From Burkholderiales bacterium (GTDB lineage Bacteria; Pseudomonadota; Gammaproteobacteria; Burkholderiales; Burkholderiaceae_C): a DNA stretch of 39,713 bases. The notes beneath the pieces are model-generated. The model searched no databases, had not been told where the DNA came from, and was given only the letters and a program-made list of their open reading frames with translations. The DNA is taken from the NCBI GenBank assembly GCA_947453625.1, contig CANGHK010000048.1, positions 1 through 39,713 of the forward strand, written 5' to 3'. This document shows positions 16,077 to 39,713 of the stretch, piece by piece. How positions within the stretch are numbered: the stretch's first letter is position 1; every line of letters begins with the position of its first letter. The translations under genes and the position numbers were made by a program.

Positions 16077-16163
16077 CGGATCACTCCTCACCAATCAAGC
16101 CGCGCCGGCAGCAAGGCCGTCCGCGTCAAAAATGCCCGTCGCGATGACGGCTCTGCGACGGCT

Positions 16164-17435: not shown

Positions 17436-17450
17436 GCCGAATATTCCCGA

Positions 17451-18650: not shown

Positions 18651-18658
18651 AGTGGCTT

Positions 18659-23233: not shown

Positions 23234-23234
23234 G

Positions 23235-24377
23235 TCAGATACCCCCCTGTGCGTTGGCCGCCACCGGCGCCTGTTGCATCAACTCTTTGGCCAGCAACGC
23301 CAGCGCATCCTGCGCGGTGCAGGCAGCTTCATCGCCGAAAGCACTGGCCGCGCGAAGTTCGGCGATCACTTCACCCACATAGCCGTCGGCCTGCAGCGCC
23401 GCGATGTCGTCGTCGGTGGGTTGCAGGCGCAGCCCCGACAGGTCGGACTGCAGCAGCAGGGCCCGGGCATCGGCACGACCGATCGCATCGTCGAGCCGAC
23501 GCTGCCCGGCCAGATCGATCTGGCCGACCACGACAAGATCGACCACCTGCTGCGCGTCGAGCTGTGCCAATTGATCGGCAAGGCCGTCGAGATCGCTGCC
23601 CACCCGCAACTCGGCCGACAAGGACTGCCACCGGTAGTGGCCCGTGGGCACGCGCGTGACCCGCGGCGCGGCGCCAGGTGCATCGAGTTCCACCAGCAAG
23701 GCCAGGCCTGATTCGTTGTTCCTGAAGCGGTCAGGCTCGGGCGTGCCGGCGTACCAGGTGCGGTCATCGATGGGCTTGCAGCCATGCCAGTCGCCCAGCG
23801 CCAGGTAATCGAGCCTGGCACGCACGGCGCGGTCAGCGGCGATCGGATTGGCCGAGTCGATGTCGGCCGCCAGCACGCCCTGCACGCTGCCATGGGCCAG
23901 GCCGATGCGCAGCAGGCCGTCGGGCGTGGCCGCGTGATCGAACCACTCGGTGGCATCGCCATAGGTGTGGCGCTGGGTCAGCGGAGCGGGCAGCACCGCA
24001 AAGCCCAGGTCGGCAAACAGCCTGAGCTCAGGGGTCAGCAACAGGTGTGCATTGGCGGGCACGGCGTTCAGGCGTTGCGCGCGGGTCCACACGCTCTCGG
24101 TCAACGCGGCATCGTGATTGCCAGGGATCATCAGCCAGGGGCCGGCAAATCCGGACAAGGCCTCGAACAGGCGCCGGATGGTGCGCTGCGAGACGGTCTG
24201 GGCATCGAACACGTCGCCGGCCACCAGCACGGCCGCCACGCGATGCTGGGTGGCCAGCGCGGCCAGGCGTTCGACCACCTTGATACGCTGCTCGAACAGC
24301 GGCGCAGCATGCTCAGGGTTGAGGCTGGAGAATTGGCGGCCGATCTGCCAGTCAGCGGTGTGCAGGAAGGTGGGCAT
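23235..24377 (-). CDS. Mre11/SbcD-like (YhaO-type) DNA exonuclease
   Basis: This is a 380-residue metallophosphatase. The phosphoesterase motifs are in order: HTADWQIG (H6, D9), AGDVFD (D55), GNHD (86-89), GLAHGS, and GDWHG. These build the two-metal nuclease site of the Mre11/SbcD family. The protein is expected to trim DNA ends together with the SMC-like ATPase encoded immediately downstream. The cap and helical C-terminus (about 230-380) are Ala/Asp/Gln-rich as in YhaO. The upstream 265 bases contain a perfect inverted repeat 36 bases before the start codon, a possible operator. As first gene of the nuclease-MoxR-VWA run on the minus strand, it may set the expression of the whole block. 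Confidence 0.88.
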   Translation of the reverse strand: MPTFLHTADWQIGRQFSSLNPEHAAPLFEQRIKVVERLAALATQHRVAAVLVAGDVFDAQTVSQRTIRRLFEALSGFAGPWLMIPGNHDAALTESVWTRAQRLNAVPANAHLLLTPELRLFADLGFAVLPAPLTQRHTYGDATEWFDHAATPDGLLRIGLAHGSVQGVLAADIDSANPIAADRAVRARLDYLALGDWHGCKPIDDRTWYAGTPEPDRFRNNESGLALLVELDAPGAAPRVTRVPTGHYRWQSLSAELRVGSDLDGLADQLAQLDAQQVVDLVVVGQIDLAGQRRLDDAIGRADARALLLQSDLSGLRLQPTDDDIAALQADGYVGEVIAELRAASAFGDEAACTAQDALALLAKELMQQAPVAANAQGGI

Positions 24378-24642: not shown

Positions 24643-25968
24643 TCAATCCAGCAGTTCGACCATCCGCGTCAGGCCGCGACTGCTGGCGATCGCCTTGGCG
24701 GTCGCACCGCGGGATGTTGCCAAGTCGACCTTGGCGCCCTTGGACCGCAGGCGCTTGACCGCTTCCTCGCTGTCGGCCACCACCGCCATCATCAGCGGCG
24801 TGACGTCTTCGATGCCGTCGATCACGAAGGTCGCATTGACGTCAGCCCCCTTATCGAGCAGCCAACCCACCATCTCCATGTCCATCGGCTGCGCGCGCAA
24901 CACCATGCCCAGCGGCGTCACGCCGGTGGACATGCGGGCATCGAGCGGCATCCCCCCGGCGAGCAACGCCCTGGCGGTGAGGTTCATTCCACCGGCAAAC
25001 ATGGCACTGGGGTCCGCAGCCATCAGGAACTCTCGCGCCGGCTTGCTGGTTGAGACCATCTCGGCGGCAACGGCATCCATGCGCTTGGCCAGCGCCAGCT
25101 TGATGGGAGAATTCTCCTGCTGGTCTGGCGCCATCGGATCGACTCCAGCCTGAACCAGCGCTTGCGCAGCAAGAGGCTTGTTTTGCTGGATGGCGATGTG
25201 CAATGGGCTCTGGTTGAGTCGGTTGCGCGCCGACAGGTCGACACCGGCCACGGCCTTGAGCGCCGTGATGAGTTCCCGTGAATCGGCCAAGGTCGCGTAG
25301 TGCGCGATGGTGTTGCCGGCGTCGTCGGTGTACTTGGCAAACGCCGGCGCCTTGGCAAAGACCTCTAGCGCACTCCACTTCTGCAGTTGGACCGCGTAGG
25401 GAACGGCACGCGCGTCCGGCGCACCGTCGGCGGGCGCCAACTTGAGCACCGCTTCCAGAATGCCGGCATTTTGGCCATCGATGGCCTTGATGGCGAGTTG
25501 AATGAAGTCCTTCCGGTTCGGCTCGTTGTCGATCTTCGCGCCGGCTGACAACACCATCGCCAGCACCTCGGGCGAACCGCTGGTGATGGCGGCTTCGATG
25601 ACCCCAGGCGTCTGCGCAATGTCGATGCCGATCTTGTGAAATGGCGCGATCAACTGGCCATCACCGTGGGAGAGCGCTGACAGCAAACCGCTGGCCTCGG
25701 CTTCCAGGCCCGCCTTGGCAATGGCAGCCAGCGCCGACTGCCTGAGTTGGTACTGCGCGGCAGCAACTCCCGCCGCCACAAGAACGACCACACCGACGGC
25801 GGCCACCGCCGCCCGCGTGCCCTTGGACAGCGTCACGGCGACCGTGCCTGGCACCAGATCGCTGTCGATCAGGGTGAGAGCGGCCGCGGCCGGCTCATCC
25901 CACCGAAGTGGCGGAGCGATGTCTGAATGATTCTGCATGGCGCCGGGTATTTCAATCAGCTTCAACAT
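24643..25968 (-). CDS. Ankyrin-repeat membrane protein
   Basis: This is a 441-residue protein with one N-terminal membrane segment (AAVAAVGVVVLVAAGVAAA, about residues 53-71) and a long ankyrin-repeat region. Clear repeats are DAGNTIAHYATLADSRELI, RLNQSPLHIAIQQNKPLAAQ and the TGVTPLGMVLRAQP segment with WLLDKGADVN, plus a last one ending in KRLRSKGAKVDLA. Ankyrin repeats bind other proteins. The short Asp/Pro-rich N-terminus would face the cytoplasm and the repeats the periplasm if the positive-inside rule holds, but the orientation is uncertain. The ATG at 25968 is taken; an ATG ten codons later is possible, and neither has a good ribosome-binding site. It follows a PH-like membrane protein after 15 bases, so both probably act together at the membrane. 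Confidence 0.75.
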   Translation of the reverse strand: MLKLIEIPGAMQNHSDIAPPLRWDEPAAAALTLIDSDLVPGTVAVTLSKGTRAAVAAVGVVVLVAAGVAAAQYQLRQSALAAIAKAGLEAEASGLLSALSHGDGQLIAPFHKIGIDIAQTPGVIEAAITSGSPEVLAMVLSAGAKIDNEPNRKDFIQLAIKAIDGQNAGILEAVLKLAPADGAPDARAVPYAVQLQKWSALEVFAKAPAFAKYTDDAGNTIAHYATLADSRELITALKAVAGVDLSARNRLNQSPLHIAIQQNKPLAAQALVQAGVDPMAPDQQENSPIKLALAKRMDAVAAEMVSTSKPAREFLMAADPSAMFAGGMNLTARALLAGGMPLDARMSTGVTPLGMVLRAQPMDMEMVGWLLDKGADVNATFVIDGIEDVTPLMMAVVADSEEAVKRLRSKGAKVDLATSRGATAKAIASSRGLTRMVELLD

Positions 25969-26742: not shown

Positions 26743-27980
26743 CAATTTCAACCCGCTCAGCCGTCTTATTACGCATGGACCCGCCGCGTCGACAGGCTCC
26801 GCCGCGCCTCCGCGCTGAAGATCTCCTCGCTGTTCATCCAGGCCAGCAGCGGATCGAGCTCGGCGCCCGAATCCAAGCGGATCATGTCGCGCCGCAGCGC
26901 CAGGTTTCTCAGTTTCAGATACAACAGCAAGCCCCAGCGGCCGGCTTTGTTCAACGCTTCAAAGGCGCGCGTCATGTCGTCCGGCAGGCTGGCCGCGCAG
27001 CGCGTCAGCGAGAACGGTGCGAGTGTCCGCAGCAGCGCCAGCGCTGGCTGATCCTCCAGATACCTCAGCAGAAAATCGCGGTTGATACCGGGCCGCGATT
27101 CATCGGCGCTGGCCTGCAGGATGAACAGATTGCCTTCGAAACTGGGCAGCATCGTCGCCATCCCCAACTCGAATACAGCATTCTGGTTTTGCAGTCCTGC
27201 GGCTGGCGGGCCGAAATGCGACAGGATCAAATCGGCACGCTGCATCTTCAGGCGCAGGCGCTGCAGGCGCGAATTCATCTCCAGACGCTGCTCGGGAATC
27301 GTGCAGACGACCCGGATATCCAGCGCCATGGCGCCGGGATGCGCCATGGCGTCCTTGGCCAGCAGCGATACGGTATCAGCCACCAGTTCACGCAACAGGC
27401 CCGGGCCGACCGCCAGGAAACTGCGGTCGAAGGCCTGGGGATGTTGCAACTCCGTCTCTGACCAATTGGCTGACAACAGCAGATAAATCGCATTCGATAT
27501 CTTTTCGGTCGCGAATGCAAAATCGTAACCCTCGACTCGTCGCGTCGGCACGCCCGATTCAGCGCCGCCGGGATACCAGGGCTCGAGCAGCGGGGCAACA
27601 TTCAACAGGGATTTCTCGGCGCGTCCGGCCCGGACCATCTGTCGCGTCGTGAAACTCCTCGCCGGTGGCGCGGCCGATTCCCGGGTAATCAGCGCCTGGC
27701 GCAAATCAGCCAGGAAACGATCTGAATCATCCGTCGCGGGGCGTTTGCCCGACAGAATATCCAGGCTCTTGTCCTGCCGCTCGATCTGATCGAACTGGCG
27801 CAGCAGCCGGTCGGCCCTGCGCGCTATCTCGTCCTCGTCAGGCACCGGGAACTGCTGGCGGTCGAGCAATGCCGCGCGCAGGTCGGCAGCCTGCGCGGCG
27901 ACAACCGCATCGGCCACCTCATGCCCGGCCAGGGCCTGCAGCCAGAGCTCGGCGTCCCGGGTTTCGGCGGGGTCCATCGC
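26743..27980 (-). repeat. Long duplicated segment, copy A (matches 38476-39713)
   Basis: This stretch pairs colinearly with 38476-39713, both 1238 bases and apparently without net indels. It covers the coding region from residue 104 to the end and about 25 bases past the stop. Runs of 50 or more identical bases occur, for example around the codons for the SADESRPGINRDFLLRYLE segment. The copies are in the same orientation, 11.7 kb apart. Confidence 0.8.
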
Positions 27981-28286
27981 CGGGGAGGCGGGCTCGAACG
28001 AATCGCCCCGCTCCTGCGCATCGATGCGCGCCAGCAAGGCCGCCACGCGGTCTTCCAGGCCCTGGTCGTTAGCCGGTGCTTGGTCGAGTTGCTGCTGCAG
28101 CAAGGCCTGCCGGATGTCGGCGATAGGCCTTTCGGCACTGCTGATGGGGGAGGCTTGGCCCCGCAGCAGGTCCAAGGCCCGCCGGGCGACCGCGCCCGGA
28201 ATGGGGGACGCCTCGTCATCGCGCATCGGGTTCACGCGACCCTGTTTTGCCGGGGTCGACTTCGGCTGGAACCAGTCATTACTCAC
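26769..28286 (-). CDS. TIR/deoxyribosyltransferase-like protein, paralogue A
   Basis: This 505-residue protein starts at a GTG with GGAGAG six bases upstream. The N-terminal 200 residues are helical and carry three copies of a short motif: ADIRQALLQQQ (56-66), ADLRAALLDRQ (134-144) and ADLRQALITRE (193-203). The C-terminal half contains DIRVVCTIPEQR, then KMQRADLILSHF (348-359), then NQNAVFELGMA (367-377) and NLFILQASADE. The ADLIL ... NxxxFELG pattern is the shared signature of TIR-like and nucleoside-deoxyribosyltransferase-like folds, whose conserved Glu cleaves N-glycosidic bonds in NAD or nucleotides. The rest of the fold is not obvious, so this is a low-certainty domain call. A second copy starts beyond the right edge. 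It sits 42 bases behind the sigma-factor gene. Confidence 0.6.
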   Translation of the reverse strand: MSNDWFQPKSTPAKQGRVNPMRDDEASPIPGAVARRALDLLRGQASPISSAERPIADIRQALLQQQLDQAPANDQGLEDRVAALLARIDAQERGDSFEPASPAMDPAETRDAELWLQALAGHEVADAVVAAQAADLRAALLDRQQFPVPDEDEIARRADRLLRQFDQIERQDKSLDILSGKRPATDDSDRFLADLRQALITRESAAPPARSFTTRQMVRAGRAEKSLLNVAPLLEPWYPGGAESGVPTRRVEGYDFAFATEKISNAIYLLLSANWSETELQHPQAFDRSFLAVGPGLLRELVADTVSLLAKDAMAHPGAMALDIRVVCTIPEQRLEMNSRLQRLRLKMQRADLILSHFGPPAAGLQNQNAVFELGMATMLPSFEGNLFILQASADESRPGINRDFLLRYLEDQPALALLRTLAPFSLTRCAASLPDDMTRAFEALNKAGRWGLLLYLKLRNLALRRDMIRLDSGAELDPLLAWMNSEEIFSAEARRSLSTRRVHA

Positions 28287-28328
28287 AGATCTCTCCGTTG
28301 AAGTTCGTCGGATAGACAGCGCCGGCGC

Positions 28329-29024
28329 TCAATGCCGCCGCTCCTGTGGCCATGGCGGCCCTGCGCGGAAGTGCTTGAGCATCGCGTGGATGCTTTGGGT
28401 CATGTTGCCGGCCTGCCGATCGGTGACCGACTTGACCGGGATGTCGAGTTCGACCGAGGCGATCTCGAGTGCCGAGCATCCCGCCACCCACAAGGCCAGG
28501 CGCTGGTACTTCAGCGGGCAAGCGTGCTCGTAGGCGGCCAGCAGGCGGCGCAGGTCGGCGCGGACGTCGGGGCCTAGGCCCTTGTCGATCGTCTCTCCAG
28601 GGTGAGCGCGGCCCGGAAATCCGTCATCGTGACGCACAGTTGTCCTGTGGTCGAAACCGTCTCCGTCGTCCTCATCATCGTCGGACGACCCCGGCGGCGA
28701 ATCATCCGGCTGCACCTTGCCGGGACGAAGTTGCCTCAGGTAGTCGACAAACAGGTTGTGCAGGATGCGGTAGTAGTAGGCCTGCGGATGGCTGACATCG
28801 GCCAACGGGCGGCTACGGAACAGTTTGAAGATGACCTCCTGACCGAGATCCTCGGCCTCGTGCCTGGGAACACCCTTGCGTGTGAAGTGGCCCTGGGCGT
28901 GACCCTCCACATGGCGAAGCCACAGCCGCGCCACCTCCTGCTGTCGGTCGGCCGGCAAGGGCTGGCCCGCCGCGGTCTCCGCGAAGATGAGAAATATTTT
29001 CTTGATCGCCTCTTGCCAATTCAT
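28329..29024 (-). CDS. ECF-like RNA polymerase sigma factor
   Basis: This 231-residue protein starts at the ATG behind CAGGAG; the frame is open upstream but without coding character. Residues 40-100 match sigma-70 region 2: HEAEDLGQEVIFKLF, then SHPQAYYYRILHNLFVDYLRQ. Residues 170-220 correspond to region 4 (KYQRLALWVAGCSALEIASVELDIPVKSVTDR). The two are joined by an acidic, Asp-rich linker (about 107-150). Lack of region 3 and the small size place it in the ECF group. It heads the minus-strand run with the TIR-like, PH-like and ankyrin genes and is divergent from the AAA+/VWA pair, so it likely controls one or both directions. No anti-sigma factor gene with a typical zinc motif is adjacent; the PH/ankyrin membrane proteins could fill that role, which is speculation. 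Confidence 0.75.
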   Translation of the reverse strand: MNWQEAIKKIFLIFAETAAGQPLPADRQQEVARLWLRHVEGHAQGHFTRKGVPRHEAEDLGQEVIFKLFRSRPLADVSHPQAYYYRILHNLFVDYLRQLRPGKVQPDDSPPGSSDDDEDDGDGFDHRTTVRHDDGFPGRAHPGETIDKGLGPDVRADLRRLLAAYEHACPLKYQRLALWVAGCSALEIASVELDIPVKSVTDRQAGNMTQSIHAMLKHFRAGPPWPQERRH

Positions 29025-29465
29025 CGCTGCTCCTGTTTCCAAAAAATTCTTGTCGCCCCGCGTGGGTGCCGATCCAGACCCCTGGCTTGTCGCACTTGCA
29101 CCAGACCCTTGCCGCGGGCGCCTCCACCCTGCAAGCAGAGACCGTGGCCTGCGGTTTTCATCAGCAGGGGCTGCAAAAAAACTTTTTTCTCGGCGCAAGC
29201 CCCTCGGGCGCCAGCAAGTTGCCGTTGCGGCGCGTCTACACACAAGTGGCTGGCCCGCAGGCCCATGGGCTTGCGGGTCCCGTCACCGAATGAACCCGGC
29301 GTTGCGGGCTGGACAGGGAGAGTCGATCAAGGCCTGACCTGATGAATCCGCCCGCAGCACGTCTCTACCCCGTACACGCCGACCTTGCACGACAAGGCCG
29401 GTCACCCCCCACGTCGCTGGCCCTTCGCCAGGGTCCGCGACAGGGTTCACACAGGAGATCTGAAC
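29025..29465. other. Divergent control region between sigma and AAA+ genes
   Basis: No gene is supported in these 441 bases. The region must hold promoters in both directions. Features seen: an A-tract/T-tract block (AAAAAAACTTTTTT near 29165-29180), a shorter A-rich block near 29040-29048 next to the sigma start, two copies of CTTGTCGC (29049-29056 and 29086-29093), and CGTCTA at 29233-29238, which resembles the -10 element of several ECF-type promoters. The last is suggestive of sigma-dependent control of the plus-strand genes, but no matching GGAAC-type -35 was found. Confidence 0.4.
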
Positions 29466-31616
29466 ATGACCCTTCCGCCGCCCTTCCACGCCGACCTGCC
29501 GGACGAATTCACTGATGTGACGGACGCGACTGGCGCGGTCCTGCCCCGCAGTTTCACGCGACTGTGCCGTTTGTTCGCGCTGCGCGCACTGGTCGACCTG
29601 GGCGGCATGTTCAACGTGGTTCACGACGGCCACTGCTCCGCGCCGGAGTTGCTGCGCTTCGTCAGGGCTGAACCCGATCCGGACGCCGACGACTTCGACC
29701 CGGCCAGCGTCATGGCCAAGCTGCGTGCACGCCATCGTGTCATGTCGGAGCGCAAGCCTTGCTGGCCCGAAGGCAATCCGATGATGCGCAATGCGCGCTG
29801 GCTGCAAGCGCGGGTCGGCCTGACGGAGACCGAACTGCACCTGATGCTGCTGTGCGTGCTCGCTCGCCACCACCCGGAACTGGGTCAGGCGCTGGATTCG
29901 GTGGGCGGCCTGGCCGGGCTGCACCTGACGTCAGCGATCTCCACCTTGCTGGACACGCCGATGGCCGAGGTCAGCAGCGCGTTGTCTGCTGATAGCGCGC
30001 TGGCAAGTTCGGGCCTGGTCAAGGTCGACGAGAACGCGACCTATCCGTTTCTCCACAAGTTGGACCTGCTCATGGGGCTGGAGCAGCGCTTGCAGACGTC
30101 GCACGACAACCCATTCAACCTGTTTGCCGACAACTTCGTCGTCGCACCCGCGCCGACGCTGCAAGCCGATCGCTTCGATCACCTGCAGCCCAAGCTCAAC
30201 CACATCCTGCAGTACCTGCGCCATGCGGTGCAACAGGGCCGCACCGGCGTGAACATCCTGATCTGGGGCCCGCCCGGCACGGGCAAGACCGAAGTGGTGC
30301 GCACGCTGGCCGCGGCGATACAGGCCGAACTGTTCGAGGTCTCGGTCTCGCGCCAGTGCGGCCACCGCATCGAGGGCATGCAGCGCGTGTCGGCCTACGC
30401 GCTGTCGCAAAAAATCCTGGCCAGGCGCGGCGGCGCGCTGATCATGTTCGACGAGATCGAGGACATCAGTGGCGGCTCGGACGACGATGACGACTTCATG
30501 TTTCCCAGCCGCTCGCGCAAGTCGGGCAACAAGGCCTGGATGAACCAGATGCTAGAGACCAACCCGGTGCCCGCGGTGTGGGTCTCCAACCGCATCACCC
30601 AGATCGACGCCGCGCATTTGCGCCGCTTCGACTACCACCTGGAGATGGACACGCCGCCGGCGGCGGTGCGCACGCGCATGTTGGTCGAGCGCGCCGGCCC
30701 GCTGGGCGCCAGCGAAGCCTGGTGCCGCCAGATGGCGACCAACGACTGCATGGGCCCGGGGGTGATGGCGCGTGCTGCCAGCGTGGCCGGGGCGATGCGC
30801 GAGGCCGGGGTCACCACGCCGGTGGAGTGCCTGCTGGAGGAGTTGATAGGCGGCTCGCTGAGTGCGCAGCGCCTGCAGACCTGCGCCAAGCCGCAGCGCG
30901 CCGGCCAACTGCACTACCGCATCGACGTCACCCACGCCAGCAGCGATCTGGCGGCGCTGGTGGCCGGCCTGCGCCGCCAGCCGCAGGCCCGCCTGTGCCT
31001 GTACGGCCCGCCGGGCACCGGCAAGAGCGCCTTCGCCCAGCACCTGGCCGAGCAACTGGGCATGCCGGCGATGCTGCAGCGTGCCAGCGACATCGTCAGC
31101 GCCTTAGTCGGCGAGACCGAGCAGCAGATGGCGGCCATGTTCCGCCGCGCCAAGGAGGACAACGCCGTGCTGATCCTCGACGAGGCCGACAGCTTTCTGA
31201 TGAGCCGTCAGGGTGCGCGCCAGAGTTGGGAGGTCAGCAGCGTCAACGAGATGCTGACGCAGATGGAGTCCTTCGAGGGCATCTTCGTCGCCACCACGAA
31301 CCTGATGGACCGCCTGGACGAGGCCAGCCTGCGCCGCTTCGACGCCAAGATCGCTTTCGACTACCTGCGCCCGGGCCAGATCGTCACGCTGCTGCAAGAG
31401 GCCTGCGCCGTGCTGGGGCTGGACGCCACCGGCAGCCAGGCCCAGGCCAGCCAGTTGCGTGCGCTGACCCCGGGCGACTTTGCCACCGTGATCCGCCAGG
31501 CCCGCTTCAGCCCCGTTCGCGACCTGGCCGACCTGGGCCGCCGGCTGGCCGACGAGACGCGAATGAAGAGTGTCACCACCAGCCGCCCCATGGGCTTCGT
31601 GCTCCAGGCGGCCTGA
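29466..31616 (+). CDS. Double AAA+ ATPase
   Basis: This 716-residue protein starts at the ATG behind AGGAG (9 bases). The N-terminal 230 residues are helical with no recognised domain. Two AAA+ modules follow. The first has Walker A GPPGTGKT (268-275) and Walker B LIMFDE (325-330). The second has Walker A GPPGTGKS (514-521) and Walker B LILDEAD (569-575), followed by NEMLTQMESFEG, ATTNLMDRLDEASLRRFD and sensor-2-like regions as in the Cdc48/FtsH/katanin branch. In the first module the loop after Walker B carries an unusual Asp run (GGSDDDDDF). Such tandem AAA+ proteins unfold or remodel proteins as hexamers. The VWA paralogue encoded 125 bases downstream is the likely partner. No protease domain is fused, so remodelling rather than degradation is expected. 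Confidence 0.85.
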   Translation: MTLPPPFHADLPDEFTDVTDATGAVLPRSFTRLCRLFALRALVDLGGMFNVVHDGHCSAPELLRFVRAEPDPDADDFDPASVMAKLRARHRVMSERKPCWPEGNPMMRNARWLQARVGLTETELHLMLLCVLARHHPELGQALDSVGGLAGLHLTSAISTLLDTPMAEVSSALSADSALASSGLVKVDENATYPFLHKLDLLMGLEQRLQTSHDNPFNLFADNFVVAPAPTLQADRFDHLQPKLNHILQYLRHAVQQGRTGVNILIWGPPGTGKTEVVRTLAAAIQAELFEVSVSRQCGHRIEGMQRVSAYALSQKILARRGGALIMFDEIEDISGGSDDDDDFMFPSRSRKSGNKAWMNQMLETNPVPAVWVSNRITQIDAAHLRRFDYHLEMDTPPAAVRTRMLVERAGPLGASEAWCRQMATNDCMGPGVMARAASVAGAMREAGVTTPVECLLEELIGGSLSAQRLQTCAKPQRAGQLHYRIDVTHASSDLAALVAGLRRQPQARLCLYGPPGTGKSAFAQHLAEQLGMPAMLQRASDIVSALVGETEQQMAAMFRRAKEDNAVLILDEADSFLMSRQGARQSWEVSSVNEMLTQMESFEGIFVATTNLMDRLDEASLRRFDAKIAFDYLRPGQIVTLLQEACAVLGLDATGSQAQASQLRALTPGDFATVIRQARFSPVRDLADLGRRLADETRMKSVTTSRPMGFVLQAA

Positions 31617-31740
31617 TCCGCGGGCATCTTTTCCGCGGGTGTCTTTTCCGCGGGAACGTCGCACCGCGGCCGCAAGCATCTCTCCCCCCCAACGGCAGCA
31701 CCGGAAGCGGCCCCCGAATCCCTCATCAAAGGAAGAAACC

Positions 31741-33111
31741 ATGAACACCCCTCTGTCCCTGTCCACCACCGTCACATTGATCGCCCATCGCGCCGGCCTG
31801 CACGCCGGCCGCGACAACGAGGTCGAGGTGCTGGTGCGCATCGATGCGCCCGACATGCCGGCCGGCCATGTCGCCCAGCGCCCGCCGCAGGCGCTCGCCC
31901 TGGTGATCGACCGCTCGGGCTCGATGCAAGGCCATCCGCTGGACGAGGCCAAGCGCTGTGCCGCCTACGTGGTCGGCCAGTTGCGGCCGACCGACAAGGT
32001 CTCGCTGGTGCAGTTCGACAACCGGGTTCGCCGGCTGTGGCCCGCCGTGCCGCTGGGTGACGGCGCGGCGCTGCGCGAGGCCATCGCCGCGATCCACTCC
32101 GGCGGACAAACCAACCTGCACGGCGGCTGGCTAGAGGGTGCCGATAGCCTGCGCGACGTGGGCGGCTCCGGACTCAAGCGCGTGATCCTGCTGTCGGACG
32201 GCCAGGCCAACGCCGGGCTGACCGATCCCGTGGCGATTGCGGCGCAATGCACCCAGCAGGCCGCGCAAGGCGTGACCACCAGCACCTATGGGCTCGGCCG
32301 CGGTTTCAACGAGGACTTGATGGTGGCCATGGCGCGTGCCGGGGGTGGCAACCACTACTACGGCGACACCGCCGAGGACTTGATGGACCCGTTCCAGCAG
32401 GAACTCGAGTTGCTGGGCAACCTGTGCCTGCGCGAGTTGCACCTGTCCGTGGACCTGCCTGGCGGCGTGACGGTCAAGATGATCAACGACCTGCCCCGCG
32501 CCGACGGCGGCTGGCGGATGCTGGACCTGACCTGGGGCGCGCAGGCCTGGGCCGTGCTGCGGCTGACGGTGCCGGCGGCAGCACTGCCGGCCGCGGGGCA
32601 GTGGCTGTCGCTGCTGCAGGTCAGCATGCGTGGCCGGACGCTGGACGGCGAGGCGGTGACGCTGGAGCGCACCAGTCTGGCGCTACGGGTGTTGCCGCCC
32701 GATGCCTTCAGCCAATTGGCCGAGGACGACACCGTGGCCCGCCGGCTGGTCGAACTGGCCGCGGCCGATGCGCTGACCCGGATGCGCCAGGCCGCATTCG
32801 ACAGTGACTGGGTGAGGGTGGACGACTTGCTGCAGCGGGCCACACTCGATTTCGCCGACAACGACTGGGTGGCCGCGGTGCTCGATGCGATGAAGGCGGT
32901 CGCCAACAGCCGCTCGCGCGAACGCATGATGAAGGAATCGATGTACTCGTCGGCCAAGATGCGCAGCCGCCTGACGAGCCGGGACGAAGACCAAGGCTTC
33001 TCCGCGGCCCAGGGGGAGGCCGCGACGCCGTCCTATCTGCGGCGTAAATCAGCCCAAGGCAAGGCCGCGCCCGGCGCTGACCGTGGCGGCGACGACCCCG
33101 CCAAGCGCTGA
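31741..33111 (+). CDS. VWA-domain protein (paralogue 2)
   Basis: This is a 456-residue protein with an AAGGAAG site just before the ATG. It has a complete VWA metal site (LVIDRSGSMQG; GGQTNLHGGW; VILLSDGQAN), followed by GLGRGFNEDLMVAMARAG and GNHYYGDTAEDLMDP, nearly identical to the corresponding parts of the protein at 12733-14058. The conserved C-terminal helix SRSRERMMKES and the YLRRKSAQGK tail are also shared. The long upstream extension of the frame overlaps the AAA+ gene and is not coding. It is presumably co-transcribed with the double AAA+ ATPase, in the usual ATPase-VWA pairing. The Thr of the second metal motif is present in both paralogues, so both should bind a divalent metal. 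Confidence 0.87.
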   Translation: MNTPLSLSTTVTLIAHRAGLHAGRDNEVEVLVRIDAPDMPAGHVAQRPPQALALVIDRSGSMQGHPLDEAKRCAAYVVGQLRPTDKVSLVQFDNRVRRLWPAVPLGDGAALREAIAAIHSGGQTNLHGGWLEGADSLRDVGGSGLKRVILLSDGQANAGLTDPVAIAAQCTQQAAQGVTTSTYGLGRGFNEDLMVAMARAGGGNHYYGDTAEDLMDPFQQELELLGNLCLRELHLSVDLPGGVTVKMINDLPRADGGWRMLDLTWGAQAWAVLRLTVPAAALPAAGQWLSLLQVSMRGRTLDGEAVTLERTSLALRVLPPDAFSQLAEDDTVARRLVELAAADALTRMRQAAFDSDWVRVDDLLQRATLDFADNDWVAAVLDAMKAVANSRSRERMMKESMYSSAKMRSRLTSRDEDQGFSAAQGEAATPSYLRRKSAQGKAAPGADRGGDDPAKR

Positions 33112-33169
33112 GGAGATTCGCAAGGCGCTGGCGAGCGGCCTTGCGGCGCGAATCATTCGACTCGACAGT

Positions 33170-33196
33170 TTCGATGCCCGCGAAGACGGGCACGAA
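33170..33196. terminator. Hairpin between convergent VWA and receptor genes
   Basis: TTCG-A-TGCCCG and CGGGCA-CGAA form a 10-bp stem with one bulged base and a 6-base loop, in the 158-base gap between two convergent stop codons. No T-tract follows; a bidirectional terminator is the simplest reading. Confidence 0.4.
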
Positions 33197-33269
33197 GCCG
33201 GAGACGGGATCGGATGATTGGCTGGACCGATTCGGCGCCTTCTCAGAGCCGGGAAGATCGCGATCCCAC

Positions 33270-35420
33270 TCAGAACTCGAGGCTGGCCGATGCGGCGACC
33301 GACCTCGGTGCGCCGGGAAAGAGCAAGTCCGCACTGTAGGCTTCACCGACGTCGCGCCAATAGCGCCGGTCGGCCAGGTTTTTGACGCTGAGCGCAAGCA
33401 CGGTGGTCGTCGATGCGATGCGGGTCTTCCAGGACAGGCCCAGATTCAGCAAGTCATATTCGGGTACGGTTGCGGCGCCGTCACGGCGCGCATTTCGAAG
33501 GCCGCGGTGTGTCCACGACAAGCTGTACTCCAGACCCGGGGTGATGCTCGGCGCATGAATCACGCGAACAAAGCTGCTCAGGCGCGGCACGTTCTGGATC
33601 TGGACGTTTTCAAGTGCCGACACGCCCGTGCCCGTTGCCCGCGCGCGGATGTATGCGGCGCTGGCTTCAAACCGCAGGGGCAACTTTTCTGTGCTCTGGT
33701 ATGACACCTCCAGTCCGTCGTGGACTTGGCTCCCGCTGCTGACGTAATCCCCAAGCCCGGCCCATGAGCCGCCGACGGGCTGGGTGAACTCGTAGGGCCG
33801 TACCATCCGGAACGCGGAAACGGTCCAGGCTGCCCCTGCGCTCAAGTGCCCTTTCCATCCGGCCTCTGTCTGGTTCGTGCGCCGCGGGGCGAGCAGTGCG
33901 CCCGCGTTCGACGCGGTCAGCGGCGCTTCTGATCCGAATTCCACCCCGCGCGCACGGCTGACATACAGGGACTGTCCAACGGTCGGTGCCCATGTCACCG
34001 CGAACTGCGGAAGCAGGTGGTGCTCTCGAGCCCCTGACGGCTGCTGGTCGATGCCGACAGCGCGAAGCCCGACGAGCACGCTCACGCCGCCAAGACTCAT
34101 GTTGTCCGACAGCACCGCGCCAGACTGAATGGCTCGCGTCGCCGGCCGGTTGATGCCCATGCCAATCGGAGCCTCGAGCGGCGTTGCCGTGGTGGCGATA
34201 TTCTGCACAAGGCCATTCCCGATCGCATCGTAAATCGTCGCCGAGTAGAGATTGTCCTGTCGCACCGACCGGTCGACTCTTTCCACACCCAAAGCCAGCG
34301 CATGCGCCACCGCGCCAGACCGTGTCGCGGCTGAAATGGACGCCGTCAGATGACGCCCCGCACGCCGTTCTCTTGCGTGATAGTCGTAGAGGACGAAATC
34401 ACCGTTTGAACAGAAGTATTGGACCGGGCTCGTGTTGCAGCCCCAGGGCGTCGCGAGATTGTCATCGATCATGGCCACAGTGCTTGCGGCACCAGCCTGA
34501 AAAGCCAACCCTTCCGCGATTTGCCAACTCAGGCGCAAGTCGGCCATCACACCCTCGTTGGTCACCGGCCGAGACCACGATTGGCGATTGATGTTGACGT
34601 CGCGCGCATTGCTGTCAGGCAGTGTTGTTCCCCCCAGGAGTTGAAACCCCGGTACCACCTGCTGGGAGCGTCGCTGTGCGATCAGGTCCGCCATGATCAG
34701 CAAACCTGGTCGCAATCGGGTGTCGACCGCCAGACTCAGCAGATCGCGCTGACCGTCCGCCGCGGGCTGGTTCGGCCGCATCTCTGCGTGCGCGGCACCC
34801 AAGCGCAGACCGGTATCGCCGGGTGTGCCGAGCCGATAGGCCAGGTCGGCTGCGGTGACGATGCCGCCGCGCTGCGAGACTTCGGCGCGCACGACGTTCG
34901 GGCCGTCAGAGCGTCGGGTCACGAAGTTGACGCTGCCGCCTGCGCCGATCAGGCCACCTTGTGGCCCCGCAACGCCCTTGAGCACTTCGACGGAGTCGAC
35001 CATGTCCAGCGGAATGTGGAATTCGCCGGGCACGACAAAGCCGTTGATCCGGTAGGAGGTTCCGAGATCCAGCGTGAACCCGCGCACCGTGAAGTTCTCG
35101 TAATAACCGGATGTGGCAAAGTTTTCACCAACGGAAGGCACCCGTGCCAGCACAGAGGCAATGGACAGGCTGCCAGGCTCTGCCAGCGCATCGGCGGCAA
35201 TCACTGACATGCTGAGCGGCGCGTCCAGCATGTCACCACGCGCACCCAGCAGGCTGGCCGGCCTTGAATACTCCCGGGCGCCGATGACGACCACGCTGCC
35301 AGCCGTTGGAATAGCGGACGTCAGCGCTTCGATTGGGTCAGCCGCAAACGCCGCGGCAGGGATCCATAGCGTGGCTGCAACGCGCGTGACTACGGTTTTG
35401 AATATCATTTTTATAATCAT
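33270..35420 (-). CDS. TonB-dependent outer-membrane receptor, probably for an NAD precursor
   Basis: This is a 716-residue receptor. It has a signal peptide (TLWIPAAAFA, cleaved before ADPIEA), a TonB-box-like SVVVIGARE, and a plug domain with LDAPLSMSVIAADAL, SIASVLARVPSV, YENFTVRGF, IPLDMVDSVEVLKG and GGSVNFVTRR. It then continues as a 22-strand-type barrel ending in the C-terminal Phe (SASLEF) needed for outer-membrane insertion. Sequence style is that of siderophore-type receptors. Its ATG overlaps the NadR stop in ATGA, and NadR overlaps PnuC in the same way, so the likely substrate is nicotinamide riboside, NMN or a related NAD precursor rather than iron. That assignment is from context. 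No ferric-uptake box was noticed. Confidence 0.85.
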   Translation of the reverse strand: MIIKMIFKTVVTRVAATLWIPAAAFAADPIEALTSAIPTAGSVVVIGAREYSRPASLLGARGDMLDAPLSMSVIAADALAEPGSLSIASVLARVPSVGENFATSGYYENFTVRGFTLDLGTSYRINGFVVPGEFHIPLDMVDSVEVLKGVAGPQGGLIGAGGSVNFVTRRSDGPNVVRAEVSQRGGIVTAADLAYRLGTPGDTGLRLGAAHAEMRPNQPAADGQRDLLSLAVDTRLRPGLLIMADLIAQRRSQQVVPGFQLLGGTTLPDSNARDVNINRQSWSRPVTNEGVMADLRLSWQIAEGLAFQAGAASTVAMIDDNLATPWGCNTSPVQYFCSNGDFVLYDYHARERRAGRHLTASISAATRSGAVAHALALGVERVDRSVRQDNLYSATIYDAIGNGLVQNIATTATPLEAPIGMGINRPATRAIQSGAVLSDNMSLGGVSVLVGLRAVGIDQQPSGAREHHLLPQFAVTWAPTVGQSLYVSRARGVEFGSEAPLTASNAGALLAPRRTNQTEAGWKGHLSAGAAWTVSAFRMVRPYEFTQPVGGSWAGLGDYVSSGSQVHDGLEVSYQSTEKLPLRFEASAAYIRARATGTGVSALENVQIQNVPRLSSFVRVIHAPSITPGLEYSLSWTHRGLRNARRDGAATVPEYDLLNLGLSWKTRIASTTTVLALSVKNLADRRYWRDVGEAYSADLLFPGAPRSVAASASLEF

Positions 35421-36538
35421 TTTACTCGCTCAACGATGGGTATCGCAAAATTCCAATGCCGCTTGAGCGCGGTATCGATGAGCACTGCCGCCCGTTCGGC
35501 ACGTTCCTCGCGTGTGCCTGTCAGAACGTGATACGGGAACCCATGTGCGTCCAGGACCTCAATGAATCGACGGGTCATCCAGGCGCGGCGATACTCGCCA
35601 TCTCGAAGGCCGTCCTGCTCGAATGGCACGCCGTCATGGTGCGTGATCAGGTACAGGATGGGAGGCCTGCCGTGGCGCAAGCCAATCAAGTCCTCACGCC
35701 AGGTACCGACATAGCGTTCGTGCCACACGGCAGTGGCCAGGACGTCCGTATCGCAGATGAGAACAGGACCGCCACGCGCGGCGGCACCCTCTTCGGCTCG
35801 CTGTTGTTGCCGTGCAATCAGATCGAACTCGTCGCTGTGCCAGGCCAGGTCGTCCAGATCGGGAACGGATGTGGCTTCAATCTGCGCCCGCGCGATGGAG
35901 CGGGCGAGTTTGGCGACCGTGTACTCGCGTCCGAACTCGGGTACCCACTGGGTGAGGCTGTTGGCGCCACCGCGCCGGCGCCAACGGTCAACCAGATCCC
36001 GCGACAGCGTGGTGGTACCCGACGACTCCGCGCCAAGCACGACGATCCGAGCGGCAAGCCCTGCCCGCACTGGCGCGGACAGGAAGTCCCAGTTGCCGGG
36101 GACATCGCGACGGATTTTGGTCGAGGATGTCTGCACCAGCGCGCGGCCCCTGTCGAGCACGACCGAGCGTGCGGAGAACCGGTGCGCCATCTCGGCACCG
36201 TAGGACTCGGACGTGAAGACATGCGTGACGGCCGGCGCGACCAGGGTCTGGAGCGCCTGCCGCATCAGGGCGATATGCTGGTCCCAGATGGCCGGATCGC
36301 CATAGTCGACCGGCACGTCATCCATGATCCCGACGACGGTGACGTTTGGCGCGCCAGCATGGGCTTCCTGCATCCACGCCACGCGGCTGGCCAACGGAAC
36401 CGACTCCTGAGTCGATGCCATCACCACCACCGAGACCTGGTCACAACTCGCCGCTGCGGTGTCTATCAGCAGGTGGTGGCCGCGGTGCGGAGGATAAAAC
36501 TTGCCGATGACAAGAGCGTGGGTGGCTTGCGTTGTCAT
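35417..36538 (-). CDS. nadR: NadR-type NMN adenylyltransferase / ribosylnicotinamide kinase
   Basis: This is a 373-residue bifunctional enzyme that phosphorylates nicotinamide riboside to NMN and adenylates NMN to NAD. The N-terminal adenylyltransferase domain shows GKFYPPHRGHHLL with the HxGH set at 18-21 and SSTKIRRD (138-145). The C-terminal kinase domain starts at VVLGAESSGTTTLSRDL (167-183). Its P-loop has Thr175 where a Lys is usual (GxESSGKTT); I recall such Thr variants in some NadR proteins, but activity should be tested. There is no N-terminal helix-turn-helix, so it is not the repressor form. The ATG at 36538 overlaps the pnuC stop by four bases (ATGA); a longer open frame upstream only shadows pnuC. 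Confidence 0.9.
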   Translation of the reverse strand: MTTQATHALVIGKFYPPHRGHHLLIDTAAASCDQVSVVVMASTQESVPLASRVAWMQEAHAGAPNVTVVGIMDDVPVDYGDPAIWDQHIALMRQALQTLVAPAVTHVFTSESYGAEMAHRFSARSVVLDRGRALVQTSSTKIRRDVPGNWDFLSAPVRAGLAARIVVLGAESSGTTTLSRDLVDRWRRRGGANSLTQWVPEFGREYTVAKLARSIARAQIEATSVPDLDDLAWHSDEFDLIARQQQRAEEGAAARGGPVLICDTDVLATAVWHERYVGTWREDLIGLRHGRPPILYLITHHDGVPFEQDGLRDGEYRRAWMTRRFIEVLDAHGFPYHVLTGTREERAERAAVLIDTALKRHWNFAIPIVERVK

Positions 36539-37134
36539 GCCTGTTGAGCCTGAAGTCGGCTCAGCCAGGCGCGCAGCCCGATGACTGCCATGACGAGGAA
36601 GATCAAGTACAGGGCCGTCGTCAAATGGAGCGATCGGCTCCAGTACAGCGGCACAGAGATGAGGTCGACCAGAATCCAGTACCACCATCCCTCGATCCGT
36701 CGCCGAGCCTGGAGCAGCGTGGCCAGCAGACTGAACGTGAACACCGCAGCGTCGGCAAACGGCGCGGGGCTGTCCGTCAAGCGAGCCAGCACCAAGCCCA
36801 CGGCCGCTGTGCCCATGACACCCCCGCCCAGCGCGGCCAGGCGCTCGTTCCGTGCGCCGGTCAAGACCCGAATGTCGACCGCAGCCGACGACCCGCACTT
36901 ACGCCACTGCTGCCAGCCGTGGACGCTGGCAACGACAAAGGCGAGTTGAAGCAGGGCGTCTGCGTACAGTTTGGCTTCGAAGAACACCAGGGCATAGCAG
37001 CCGACGCTGACGATGCCTACTGGCCAAGTCAACAGGTTCAGTTTGAGGACGAACCAGACTGACAGCAAACCGGTCACGACAGCGATGACTTCTACGGGTG
37101 ATACCGGCTGACCCAGGATCGACAGTTCAGGCAT
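36535..37134 (-). CDS. pnuC: PnuC-type nicotinamide riboside transporter
   Basis: This is a 199-residue inner-membrane protein with about seven hydrophobic segments. PnuC hallmarks are visible: NLLTWPVGIVSVGCYALVFF, YADALLQLAFVVASVHGWQQW, and the late WWYWILVDLISVPLYWS segment. PnuC proteins let nicotinamide riboside cross the inner membrane by facilitated diffusion, trapped by phosphorylation through NadR, whose gene overlaps by four bases. It is the first gene of the salvage operon and is preceded by two perfect stem-loops in the leader. The ribosome-binding site is weak (only a purine-poor GAATCCTAA before ATG), so translation may be low or regulated. Confidence 0.92.
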   Translation of the reverse strand: MPELSILGQPVSPVEVIAVVTGLLSVWFVLKLNLLTWPVGIVSVGCYALVFFEAKLYADALLQLAFVVASVHGWQQWRKCGSSAAVDIRVLTGARNERLAALGGGVMGTAAVGLVLARLTDSPAPFADAAVFTFSLLATLLQARRRIEGWWYWILVDLISVPLYWSRSLHLTTALYLIFLVMAVIGLRAWLSRLQAQQA

Positions 37135-37155
37135 TTAGGATTCTTGCAATCGAAG

Positions 37156-37194
37156 ACTGTTCTGCAACAGTGAGCCGCAACGCAAAGGCGTTGC
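37156..37194 (-). promoter_or_regulatory. Two tandem stem-loops in the pnuC leader
   Basis: On the minus strand, GCAACGC-CTTT-GCGTTGC (37194-37177) is followed after 5 bases by ACTGTT-GCAG-AACAGT (37171-37156), then 21 bases to the pnuC ATG. Both stems are perfect (7 and 6 bp) with 4-base loops. The second loop GCAG can pair with TTGC further down, which would make a pseudoknot near the start codon. This could be an RNA control element or a DNA operator for an NAD-responsive repressor. It does not match any riboswitch consensus I can recall in detail. Confidence 0.45.
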
Positions 37195-37211
37195 TGGTCA
37201 GGTGGGCACTG

Positions 37212-37241
37212 AAAATAAATTTGGCACCCCGAGGAGTGCCA
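37212..37241 (-). terminator. Rho-independent-like terminator of the sirtuin gene
   Basis: On the minus strand TGGCAC (37241-37236), an 8-base loop and GTGCCA (37227-37222) form a 6-bp stem followed by AATTTATTTT. It lies 60 bases beyond the sirtuin stop and before the pnuC leader, so pnuC should have its own promoter in the following 80 bases. Confidence 0.5.
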
Positions 37242-37300
37242 CGCGAAATCTGTGATGATTGCATAGGGAGGAATTTATTCCTGGGACATCCTGAAAGACA

Positions 37301-38146
37301 TCAATTTCGCCTGGAAAGCCACCTGGAGAGGCTCGCCAATACGGAAGGCTGCGCGGCATCCGCGCTTGGAAGTTGCCGGTGCGGTTCACTGGGCAATCGT
37401 ACTATTCCTGCCTCACTCGTCATCAGTTCGATAATTCTTGGCAAGGTATCTTCGGTGCGTCCATGGATCACCGCGGCCGCCAAATGGTCGAGGGGAGTCG
37501 GCTCCAGGTTGATGATGACGAGCTTTGCGCCCTGGGCAACCGCCAGCTTCGCCAAATCAGCCGCAGGGTAGACGACAGCACTCGTGCCCACCAGGAGAAA
37601 TACTTCCGAGGACTTGGCCGCTTGCTTCGCTGCGTTGCTGATACGGGCATCAAGATTTTCACCGAACAGCACCACATCAGGTCGCACTGTCGCTGCGCCG
37701 CAAGAAGGACACCGGCTTCCCTGGGCCAGACTGGCTTCGTCCAATGAGGGAAATACGGCACGGCAAGAACCACAGCGGTCCCGCAACAGGCTGCCATGAA
37801 GTTCCAGCACGCCGGTCGCCTCCGCCTTCATCAACAAGCCGTCAACATTCTGTGTCATCAAGGTCACTGCAGGCCTCAGCAGTTGCAACCTGGCGAGCGC
37901 AAAGTGCCCGGGATTGGCTTGCGCCACTTTGATTTCACTCTGCCGTGCGGCCCAGAAGTCCCGGAAACCCTCTGGATTCTTCTTCAGTTCGGCAGCGGAA
38001 CTGAATCGAATAATTCCCTCTTGAGTCCACAGCCCGCCATTGTCACGGTACGTCGGTATGCCGGAAGCCTTGGACAGGCCGGCGCCCGACAAAACTGCGA
38101 TTCTTTCCGCGGCATCAAACAACGCAGATATTTTTTCGACTTGCAT
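37301..38146 (-). CDS. Sir2-family NAD-dependent deacylase (sirtuin 2, CobB-like)
   Basis: The ATG at 38146 is preceded by AGGGAG six bases upstream, and a GTG stands one codon earlier. The product has 281 residues. Motifs: GAGLSKASGIPTYRDNGGLW (21-40), TQNVDGL (98-104), catalytic His117 in ELHGSLLRDRC, zinc cysteines 125/128 and 146/149 (CGSC, CPSCG), and VGTSAVVYPAADL with IINLEP. This is a standard sirtuin that uses NAD to remove acyl groups from lysines and releases nicotinamide. It is only distantly similar to the other sirtuin of the window (14118-15080). Placed between the NAD-salvage operon and the TIR-like paralogue B, it may take part in NAD turnover; that link is from context. Confidence 0.9.
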   Translation of the reverse strand: MQVEKISALFDAAERIAVLSGAGLSKASGIPTYRDNGGLWTQEGIIRFSSAAELKKNPEGFRDFWAARQSEIKVAQANPGHFALARLQLLRPAVTLMTQNVDGLLMKAEATGVLELHGSLLRDRCGSCRAVFPSLDEASLAQGSRCPSCGAATVRPDVVLFGENLDARISNAAKQAAKSSEVFLLVGTSAVVYPAADLAKLAVAQGAKLVIINLEPTPLDHLAAAVIHGRTEDTLPRIIELMTSEAGIVRLPSEPHRQLPSADAAQPSVLASLSRWLSRRN

Positions 38147-38498
38147 CACCGGCTCCCTTCAGTATTATTAATTTTACGCGCAAATTTGACCGTTGCAGTC
38201 TGTCCATGGCGAGCCTTCGCCACCATCAGGTAGCAGGACTGTTCGCTGAGGCCGCAGGCGCGACGCATTGTGAAACGCAAGCCCGAGTGCCATCATTTGG
38301 AATCGGGGCCGGGTGTCATCAAGCGCTTGCTGGGGGTGGGTTCTGTCGACCGGCAACATCAAGGTGCTGGCGACATCCCTGCTCGACACTGCATATCGAT
38401 CTTCCCCGAGAAAACTCAGCAGGCACGGCGCGCAGCGGCCTCGGCGCGCTGTCGATAGGGATCTCATTGCTGCGGCAATTTCAATCCACTCGGCCGTA
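38147..38498. other. Intergenic region upstream of sirtuin 2, with a possible gene remnant
   Basis: The first 30 bases are AT-rich and probably include the sirtuin promoter. The minus frame at 38174-38467 encodes 97 residues (LMLPVDRTHPQQALDDTRPRF, LRPQRTVLLPDGGEG) without a ribosome-binding site. It has the look of a piece of an old mobile gene, but I could not identify it. The last 23 bases before 38498 belong to the duplicated segment. Confidence 0.35.
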
Positions 38499-39713
38499 TT
38501 ACTGCGCTTGGACGAGTTGCCGCGACAGGCTCCTGCGCGCCTCCACGCTGAATATATCCTCGCTGTTCATCCAGGCCAGCAGCGGATCGGGCGCGCCTCG
38601 CGAGTCCGACTCGATCATGCCGCGCCGCAGTGCCATGTTTCTCAGCTTCATATACAGCAGCAATCCCCAGCGGCCAACTTTACTCAGCGATTCAAATGCA
38701 CGCGTCATGTCAGCCGGAGCACTGGCCGCGCTGCGCGTCAATGAAAAGGGTGCGAGTGCGCGCACCAGTGCCAGCGGTGGTTCATCCTCCAGATACCTCA
38801 GCAGAAAATCGCGGTTGATACCGGGCCGCGATTCATCGGCGCTGGCCTGCAGGATGAACAGATTGCCTTCGAACGTGGGCAACATCGTCGCCATGCCCAG
38901 CTCGAATACCGCGTTCTGGTTATTGACGCCTGCGTCGGACGCGCCGAGATGGGACAGGATCAAATCGGCACGCTGCATCTTCAGGCGCAGGCGCGGCAGG
39001 CGCGAATTCATCTCCAACCGCTGCTCGGGAATCGTGCAGACGACCCGAATATCGAGCGGTATGGCGCCGGGATGTGCCATCGCGTCCTTGGCCAGCAGTG
39101 ATACCAGATCGGCCACCAGTTCACGCAACAATCCCGGGCCGACCGCCATGAAACTCCGCTCAAAAGCCTGGGGATGCTGCAATTCCGGCTCTGTCCAATT
39201 GGCTGACAACAGCAGGTAAATGGAATTCGATATCTTTTCCCTGGCGAATGCAAAATCGTAACCCTCGGCCCTTCGGCTCGGCAGGCCCGGTTTACCGTGG
39301 CCGGGATACCAGGGCTCGAGCAGCGGCGCGACATTCACCAGCGAGTTTTCGGCGCATTCCATTTTTTCAATATCTCGCGCATCGATATTGACGTCGGGCT
39401 GAGCGGCCGATTCGCTGATGACAAGCGCCTGGCGCAAGTCGGCCAGGAAACGATCCGAATCGTCCGTCGCGGGGCGTTTGCCCGACAGAATATCCAGGCT
39501 CCTGTCCTGCCGCTCGATCTCATCGAACTGGTGCAGCAGTTTGTCGGCCCTGCGCGCTGCCTCGTCCTCGTCAGGCTCAGCGAACTGCTGGCGGTCGAGC
39601 AATGCCGCGCGCAGGTCGGCGGCCTGCGCGGCGACGGCGGCATCGGCCACCTCATGCCCGGCCAGGGCCTGCAGCCAGACCTCGGCGTCCCGGGTTTCGG
39701 CGGGGTCCATCGC
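38476..39713 (-). repeat. Long duplicated segment, copy B (matches 26743-27980)
   Basis: Same-orientation copy of 26743-27980, of equal length within the window and reaching its right edge, so the true repeat is longer. Homology continues past the stop codon (CAATTTCAAYCCRCTCRGCC), showing DNA-level duplication rather than convergence. Confidence 0.8.
38499..39713 (-). CDS. TIR/deoxyribosyltransferase-like protein, paralogue B (5' end beyond the window)
   Basis: This is the C-terminal 404 codons or so of a second copy of the protein at 26769-28286; the frame is open to the window edge, and the Met at its visible start is internal (it equals Met104 of copy A). The ADLRAALLDRQ and ADLRQALVISE helical motifs, KMQRADLILSHL, NQNAVFELGMA and NLFILQASADE are all kept. 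The copies differ mainly in the linker after the third helical motif (AAQPDVNIDARDIEKMECAEN here, against a quite different stretch in A) and at the last residues. The preserved catalytic-type Glu and open frame indicate selection on both copies. It probably starts its own operon or follows a gene to the right of the window. Confidence 0.65.
   Translation of the reverse strand, partial: AMDPAETRDAEVWLQALAGHEVADAAVAAQAADLRAALLDRQQFAEPDEDEAARRADKLLHQFDEIERQDRSLDILSGKRPATDDSDRFLADLRQALVISESAAQPDVNIDARDIEKMECAENSLVNVAPLLEPWYPGHGKPGLPSRRAEGYDFAFAREKISNSIYLLLSANWTEPELQHPQAFERSFMAVGPGLLRELVADLVSLLAKDAMAHPGAIPLDIRVVCTIPEQRLEMNSRLPRLRLKMQRADLILSHLGASDAGVNNQNAVFELGMATMLPTFEGNLFILQASADESRPGINRDFLLRYLEDEPPLALVRALAPFSLTRSAASAPADMTRAFESLSKVGRWGLLLYMKLRNMALRRGMIESDSRGAPDPLLAWMNSEDIFSVEARRSLSRQLVQAQ

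Follow-up and report, generated by a model that had tools for sequence, protein, structure and literature searches.

Introduction

The described families closest to the proteins considered here are the NDT/DNPH1-type N-glycosidases (PF05014) and the TIR domains of CAP12/Pycsar systems (PF10137). A glutamate has a catalytic role in NDTs, and the catalytic residues of both the NDT and the TIR families are known. Two paralogous proteins, copies A and B, are encoded on contig CANGHK010000048.1 of a Burkholderiales bacterium (assembly GCA_947453625.1), and share with the first of these families the order of a first strand with a Tyr, an AD-x-[IV] strand and an xELG segment with its Glu, and with the second the sequence N-x-N-[VA]-x-F-E-L-G, with the Glu in the same place. 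The window analysed is this entire contig, of 39713 bases, from a source genome of 127 contigs. We read the pair as a duplicated, sigma-linked orphan protein with an NDT/TIR-like C-terminal domain, whose neighbours are separate modules that meet in a mosaic region; this is a tentative reading, to which, taken as a whole, we assign a probability of roughly 0.4.

Results

Both copies carry the segment ADLIL...NQNAVFELG, including its Glu (Glu373 in copy A), exactly as a preliminary description of this DNA had reported. A pattern for this motif, drawn up after the copies had been seen, occurred in none of 1170 background open reading frames (ORFs), a set that includes some overlapping loci, and in none of a second set of 1273, from which 104 phage-motif ORFs had been removed (those loci having been fetched for that motif); of 200,000 shuffled versions of copy A, 4 contained it. 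DNA scans of viral contigs for NPNV.YELG and NPNV.[IVM]ELG returned at least 120 and 15 stretches, respectively; scans of viral contigs for N-x-N-A-V-F-E-L-G followed by x-A, and for N-Q-N-[AV]-hydrophobic-F-E-L-G, returned nothing.

Phage proteins with the motif provide the link to known enzymes. Eight were scanned, of which four match PF05014 (all below the cut-off), two match PF10137 above the cut-off and two match nothing, and a profile of 50 motif proteins, thinned for likeness from 111 candidates, finds DNPH1, NDT and CMP N-glycosidase in the PDB at E values of 0.0002-0.044. When copies A and B were aligned with 42 phage motif proteins, rows that had themselves been selected by the motif, the Glu of xELG was in register in all 44 rows, and the two copies shared the two Asn, the Glu, the Leu, the Gly, the preceding AD-x-[IV] strand and a plausible first strand. 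Profile-to-profile comparison with 33 ORF families placed the two motif-bearing ones in the top two positions when the core was used and in positions one and three with the longer domain, at probabilities of only 1-5%; trimmed sets of motif proteins gave 7-31%.

The two copies are 81% identical across 402 shared residues. The contig ends within copy B, and its final 60 bases match copy A at 59 positions, for which reason assembly probably broke off in a repeat that it could not span; the start of copy B, together with any sigma gene before it, consequently lies out of view. The ratio of nonsynonymous to synonymous substitution rates (dN/dS) between the copies is 0.332 overall, lowest (0.216) in residues 311-430, which hold the motif, and highest (0.597) in the linker, a pattern indicating that both copies look to be kept by selection and that the motif segment is their most constrained part. 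Towards the N-terminus of copy A, three ADLR.AL-like repeats begin at residues 56, 134 and 193; among 200 shuffles, the proportions attaining their pairwise scores were 0%, 0% and 4%.

Relatives of copy A were sought in genome samples from its family, genus, class and phylum, which overlap one another. None was found in 298 other family genomes or 368 other class genomes, nor in general genome contigs, viral contigs, plasmids or phages, so that in the samples searched relatives are seen in its own contig only. The 20 other genus genomes yielded a single weak match (E 0.067), which lies outside the motif and has an internal stop. At E values up to 0.3, weak matches occurred in 42 of 397 other genomes of the phylum sample; the 19 with loci returned were realigned, and none keeps the motif. 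The best-looking of the phylum matches (L057) proved by eye to be an antisense frame of a Clp-like ATPase, and is spurious. Neither copy has a family match in Pfam, NCBIfam or PADLOC, and two further hits, PHROG 16465 to the N-terminal part of copy A (E 0.15) and RusA chains of the PDB (E 1), were read as chance. Copies A and B are thus most likely paralogues of an orphan protein, found nowhere else in the samples searched. A literature search, judged by titles and the openings of abstracts, found no description of the gene set as a whole.

Models of the C-terminal domain were calculated with AlphaFold, with and without the phage proteins. The unguided model, from two rows, had a predicted local distance difference test score (pLDDT) of 38.9, a predicted template modelling score (pTM) of 0.26 and no fold match. 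Addition of the 42 motif proteins (guided model, m975bc46bb1b5) raised these values to 57.1 and 0.49, and NDTs then ranked top in Foldseek, against the PDB at E 0.010 and probability 0.98 with low template modelling scores (0.27/0.45), and in the viral library at E 0.0038 and probability 1.00; no match fell under E 0.001. Since the added rows had been picked by the motif, the guided model is partly circular, and shows that the sequence can thread on the NDT fold, not that it has this fold. The fold search proposed in the preliminary description has accordingly come out NDT-like for the guided model, with the circularity just noted, and blank for the unguided one.

The circularity of the guided model and the blank unguided one weigh against an NDT/TIR-like domain, as do several results from profiles. 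The motif domain has no match among the Pfam, NCBIfam, PADLOC or PHROG profiles, and no PDB sequence matches it beyond chance. The copies and their core stretches stay below the Pfam cut-offs of PF05014 and PF10137 (0 families for both), PF10137 has no match in the copies' own genome, and profiles of PF10137 members (six of 11 used, the other five left out for a wrong-strand reading, a stop or shortness) score the copies at probabilities of only 2.6-5.5%. An hmmsearch with the 50-row motif profile finds nothing in the own genome at E values up to 10, and the same profile ranks copy B 9th of 1172 ORFs and copy A lower, neither significantly. Rankings by a 15-row motif profile (copy B 2nd, copy A 8th) and by a PF10137-member profile (copy B 8th) were likewise not significant. 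Finally, the spurious antisense frame of the Clp-like gene itself rather resembled the motif.

The failure of every profile search, the unguided model and the resemblance of that antisense frame are what would be expected if the motif had arisen by chance or convergence, on another fold that cleaves no nucleotide, in a protein that is a partner of the sigma factor or a structural orphan. We regard this as a serious possibility, somewhat doubtful in view of the motif order kept with the phage family, the absence of the pattern from all 2443 background ORFs (the 104 phage-motif ORFs being set aside) and the location of the motif in the most constrained segment of the copies. An NDT/TIR-like domain, as the preliminary description had suggested, is made plausible by the PF05014 and PF10137 matches of the phage proteins, the PDB N-glycosidases and the register of the Glu; it is the motif that carries this case, whereas the profile searches fail. 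On balance, we consider it rather probable that the C-terminal domain is NDT/TIR-like, and hold with less confidence that it may be an active enzyme.

An ECF-like (extracytoplasmic function) sigma gene lies upstream of copy A on the same strand, with 42 bases between them, and the two likely form a two-gene unit in which sigma factor and copy A may be functionally linked. Relatives of the sigma factor were seen as weak matches in 2 of 119 other family genomes, with no copy A relative by tblastn in the surroundings of either, and none was found on plasmids. No sigma-70-type promoter was found before the sigma gene in 28200-29600, in a scan that covers no ECF-type promoters.

The remaining genes between the copies (Table 1) are those named in the preliminary description, all of which are open frames where it had placed them. 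The AAA and VWA genes are both on the plus strand with 124 bases between them; the PnuC, NadR and receptor genes, on the minus strand, are joined by two 4-base overlaps, and the sirtuin gene stands 166 bases before them. Strand and spacing indicate that there are likely at least three transcription units, sigma-copy A, AAA-VWA and PnuC-NadR-receptor. No RNA family was found in the window.

Table 1. Features of the copy A to copy B region of contig CANGHK010000048.1.
Feature	Position	Strand	Evidence
Copy A, 505 residues, GTG start	26769-28286	minus	Open frame; no Pfam, PADLOC or NCBIfam match
Copy A residues 1-224, three ADLR.AL-like repeats	27615-28286	minus	Pairwise repeat scores against shuffles
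Copy A residues 225-430, putative NDT/TIR-like domain	26997-27614	minus	Alignment to phage motif proteins; guided model
Copy A residues 351-375, ADLIL...NQNAVFELG, Glu373 at putative catalytic place	27162-27236	minus	Motif test
ECF-like sigma factor	28329-29030	minus	PF04542 31.5 bits (cut-off 24); all NCBIfam models below cut-off
Double classical AAA ATPase, 718 residues	29460-31616	plus	PF00004 twice, 154 bits
VWA protein, 456 residues	31741-33111	plus	PF00092 60.4 bits
TonB-dependent receptor, last gene of salvage operon	33270-35420	minus	PF00593 and PF07715 over cut-off
NadR-like nicotinamide mononucleotide adenylyltransferase / ribosylnicotinamide kinase	35417-36538	minus	PF13521 91.3 and PF01467 22.3 bits, both over cut-off
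PnuC nicotinamide riboside transporter	36535-37134	minus	PF04973 176.5 bits; TIGR01528 90 bits (cut-off 42.45)
Sirtuin, NAD-dependent deacylase type	37301-38149	minus	PF02146 126.9 bits (cut-off 24)
Copy B, 404 residues, 5'-truncated by contig end	38499-39713	minus	81% identity to copy A
Copy B motif ADLIL...NQNAVFELG	38895-38969	minus	Sequence comparison with copy A

The AAA ATPase resembles the anti-phage protein IetA across its second AAA domain (PADLOC, 125 bits, no cut-off given; the IetA-like NCBIfam model, 116 bits, well below its cut-off of 510). Its best match is PF00004, and bpMoxR scores 34.8 bits, with a best stretch of just 35 residues around the P-loop. In the genus, relatives occur in 8 of 20 other genomes (E up to 1e-60), and the surroundings of these eight hold no relative of the VWA protein, the sigma factor, copies A and B, the salvage genes or the sirtuin. 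Ten plasmid records contain a relative, and the five loci examined have neither a relative of the VWA protein at 31741-33111 nor the motif. Relatives of the VWA protein, which also has a paralogue of 54% identity within the window (12733-14058, plus), were found at E up to 1e-30 in six genomes among the 149 others sampled from the family; none of the six surroundings, one of which is a contig of only 4.8 kb, has a counterpart of this AAA gene. The AAA-VWA pairing is therefore not conserved in these loci, this VWA being present in none of the eight genus AAA loci and this AAA in none of the six VWA loci, and the AAA ATPase is probably a module separate from the VWA protein and the copies. These statements on separate recurrence, like those on PnuC-NadR below, hold for the loci examined.

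Several of the AAA relatives have other neighbours. Two of the plasmid loci (L218, L219) run AAA-DUF2779-WYL, and DUF2779 also adjoins an AAA relative, with WYL nearby, in one genus member (L025, where DUF2779 was assigned by 58% likeness to the DUF2779 protein of the window, at 8955-10934 on the minus strand, and WYL by eye); DUF2779, AAA relative and WYL look like a recurring module. In two genus members (L027, L030) the AAA relative adjoins an apparent metH, again by eye. On a Sphaerotilus plasmid the AAA relative is followed directly by SIR2 and then by MoxR and DUF2201 (VWA-like) genes, near BREX genes. Behind this AAA relative lie relatives (33-64%) of four window genes at 14118-20494, and it is to these 14-20 kb genes of the window that the plasmid SIR2 and DUF2201 are related, not to the VWA protein and sirtuin at 31741-38149; no copy A is present. 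In the window, the row at 14118-20494 (minus) comprises SIR2, an unnamed protein, DUF2201 (VWA-like, with a putative metallopeptidase domain), an AAA/MoxR-like ATPase and an unnamed protein of 611 residues. Next to it stand a pair encoding an SMC/SbcC-like ATPase and a calcineurin-like phosphoesterase (20552-24377, minus; Pfam AAA_23 and Metallophos; SbcCD-like by eye) and an ankyrin-repeat protein (24643-25968, minus).

With pnuC adjoining nadR and both products over Pfam cut-offs, the operon is recognised as a nicotinamide riboside salvage unit; NadR (TIGR01526, 148.5 bits, cut-off 341) and the receptor (TIGR01783, 219.6 bits, cut-off 223.5) remain below their NCBIfam cut-offs. At E values up to 1e-20, a search of the 20 other genomes of the genus yielded no NadR (1 of 21 counting its own; 12 of these 21 have a completeness of 90% or more and a contamination of 5% or less), and the PnuC-NadR operon therefore looks like a local gain. 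A NadR relative is present in 22 plasmid records; in all three loci read pnuC stands beside it, and the motif and window-type AAA and VWA genes are absent. One of these plasmids, from Miltoncostaea (L223, 2240-6074), has a sigma gene shortly before pnuC-nadR, with two genes between, and NAD (nicotinamide adenine dinucleotide) synthase and nicotinate phosphoribosyltransferase genes after it. The sirtuin resembles ordinary NAD-dependent deacylases, to judge by its PF02146 score, its best PDB match (1ma3, E 1.6e-44) and its zinc-ribbon cysteines (by eye). It falls slightly short of the NCBIfam cut-off of NF001753 (229.9 bits, cut-off 243) and further short of that of NF040867 (203.9 bits, cut-off 320), and it matched no PADLOC defence family.

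Discussion

Our preferred reading, in which an orphan protein has been duplicated among unrelated modules, differs from one in which the duplication itself explains the layout. In the latter, the A/B pair would enclose some 10 kb of cargo acquired by lateral transfer, recombination between the copies would insert, delete or amplify this cargo, and co-location would mirror the growth of an island, not shared function. The copies are indeed direct repeats 11.7 kb apart, the repeat on the visible side spans just the gene and about 40 bases past its stop, and the cargo is unevenly distributed (with the own genome counted, 1 of 21 genomes of the genus has NadR and 7 of 150 of the family have the VWA). 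However, at only 81% identity and under purifying selection the copies are not fresh recombination ends, no empty site was seen (no search was aimed at one), and the right junction lies beyond the contig; we consider this account unlikely.

A single NAD system, as put forward in the preliminary description, fares less well. There, NAD is hydrolysed by copies A and B and restored by PnuC and NadR, with activation under the control of an ATPase-VWA machine. All parts do lie within 13 kb, searches of the 20 other genomes of the genus turned up neither NadR nor the A family, which leaves room for a joint arrival, and the Sphaerotilus plasmid carries an AAA relative followed by SIR2, MoxR and the VWA-like DUF2201. 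Against this, the set was not encountered in any second genome, and in the loci examined the relatives of AAA, of VWA and of PnuC-NadR each turn up without the others. The genes are divided between the two strands and likely make up three or more transcription units, the ATPase is closest to classical AAA and not clearly a MoxR, and the sirtuin is deacylase-like. The expected recurrence of copy A homologues beside AAA+/VWA genes did not materialise either, as no copy A relative was found there or elsewhere. The coupled scheme is in our view very improbable. We give still less credence to a sigma-coupled, duplicated NAD glycohydrolase of one species in our samples, with the sigma factor released or made on firing and the salvage operon making good the NAD lost by surviving or neighbouring cells.

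Under the preferred reading of a duplicated, sigma-linked orphan, the C-terminal domain would most likely adopt an NDT/TIR-like Rossmannoid fold, in which the Glu of the ELG motif would most likely cleave the N-glycosidic bond of a nucleotide, with NAD as a candidate. Regulation of this domain would probably fall to the N-terminal repeat region, perhaps via the co-encoded sigma factor, and the salvage operon, the sirtuin, the AAA ATPase and the VWA protein would be separate modules meeting in a mosaic region. Should the domain truly be NDT/TIR-like, it would be an enzyme overlooked by all profile libraries used here, and the sigma link would join nucleotide cleavage and transcription control in one two-gene unit; should it not be, the locus is a warning that a nine-letter motif and suggestive neighbours can conjure a system that does not exist. 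The sigma-copy A unit is the part of the locus that deserves work.

An AAA+ gene adjoining a VWA gene is a likeness to the MoxR-vWA ternary conflict systems (Kaur et al. 2020, PMC7159879); the ATPase here, in contrast, is closest to classical AAA, a third conserved component is not recognised, and AAA and VWA relatives lie apart in the loci examined. A sigma gene beside a possible effector gene recalls the ECF sigma factors of conflict systems (PMC8195603), whereas no EACC2, caspase or TRADD-N part is listed among the window proteins scanned. The salvage genes, with pnuC adjoining nadR, are arranged as on three unrelated plasmids, and differ in the TonB-dependent receptor gene that is joined to them here through a 4-base overlap. 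Relative to CAP12/Pycsar TIR proteins, the copies have no PF10137 score and no recognised fused sensor, and no cyclase or other CBASS/Pycsar partner is among the window proteins scanned. Relative to NDT/DNPH1-type enzymes, they have no PF05014 score, and are set apart by extra residues around the motif, a long N-terminal repeat region, a C-terminal tail and a sigma gene next door.

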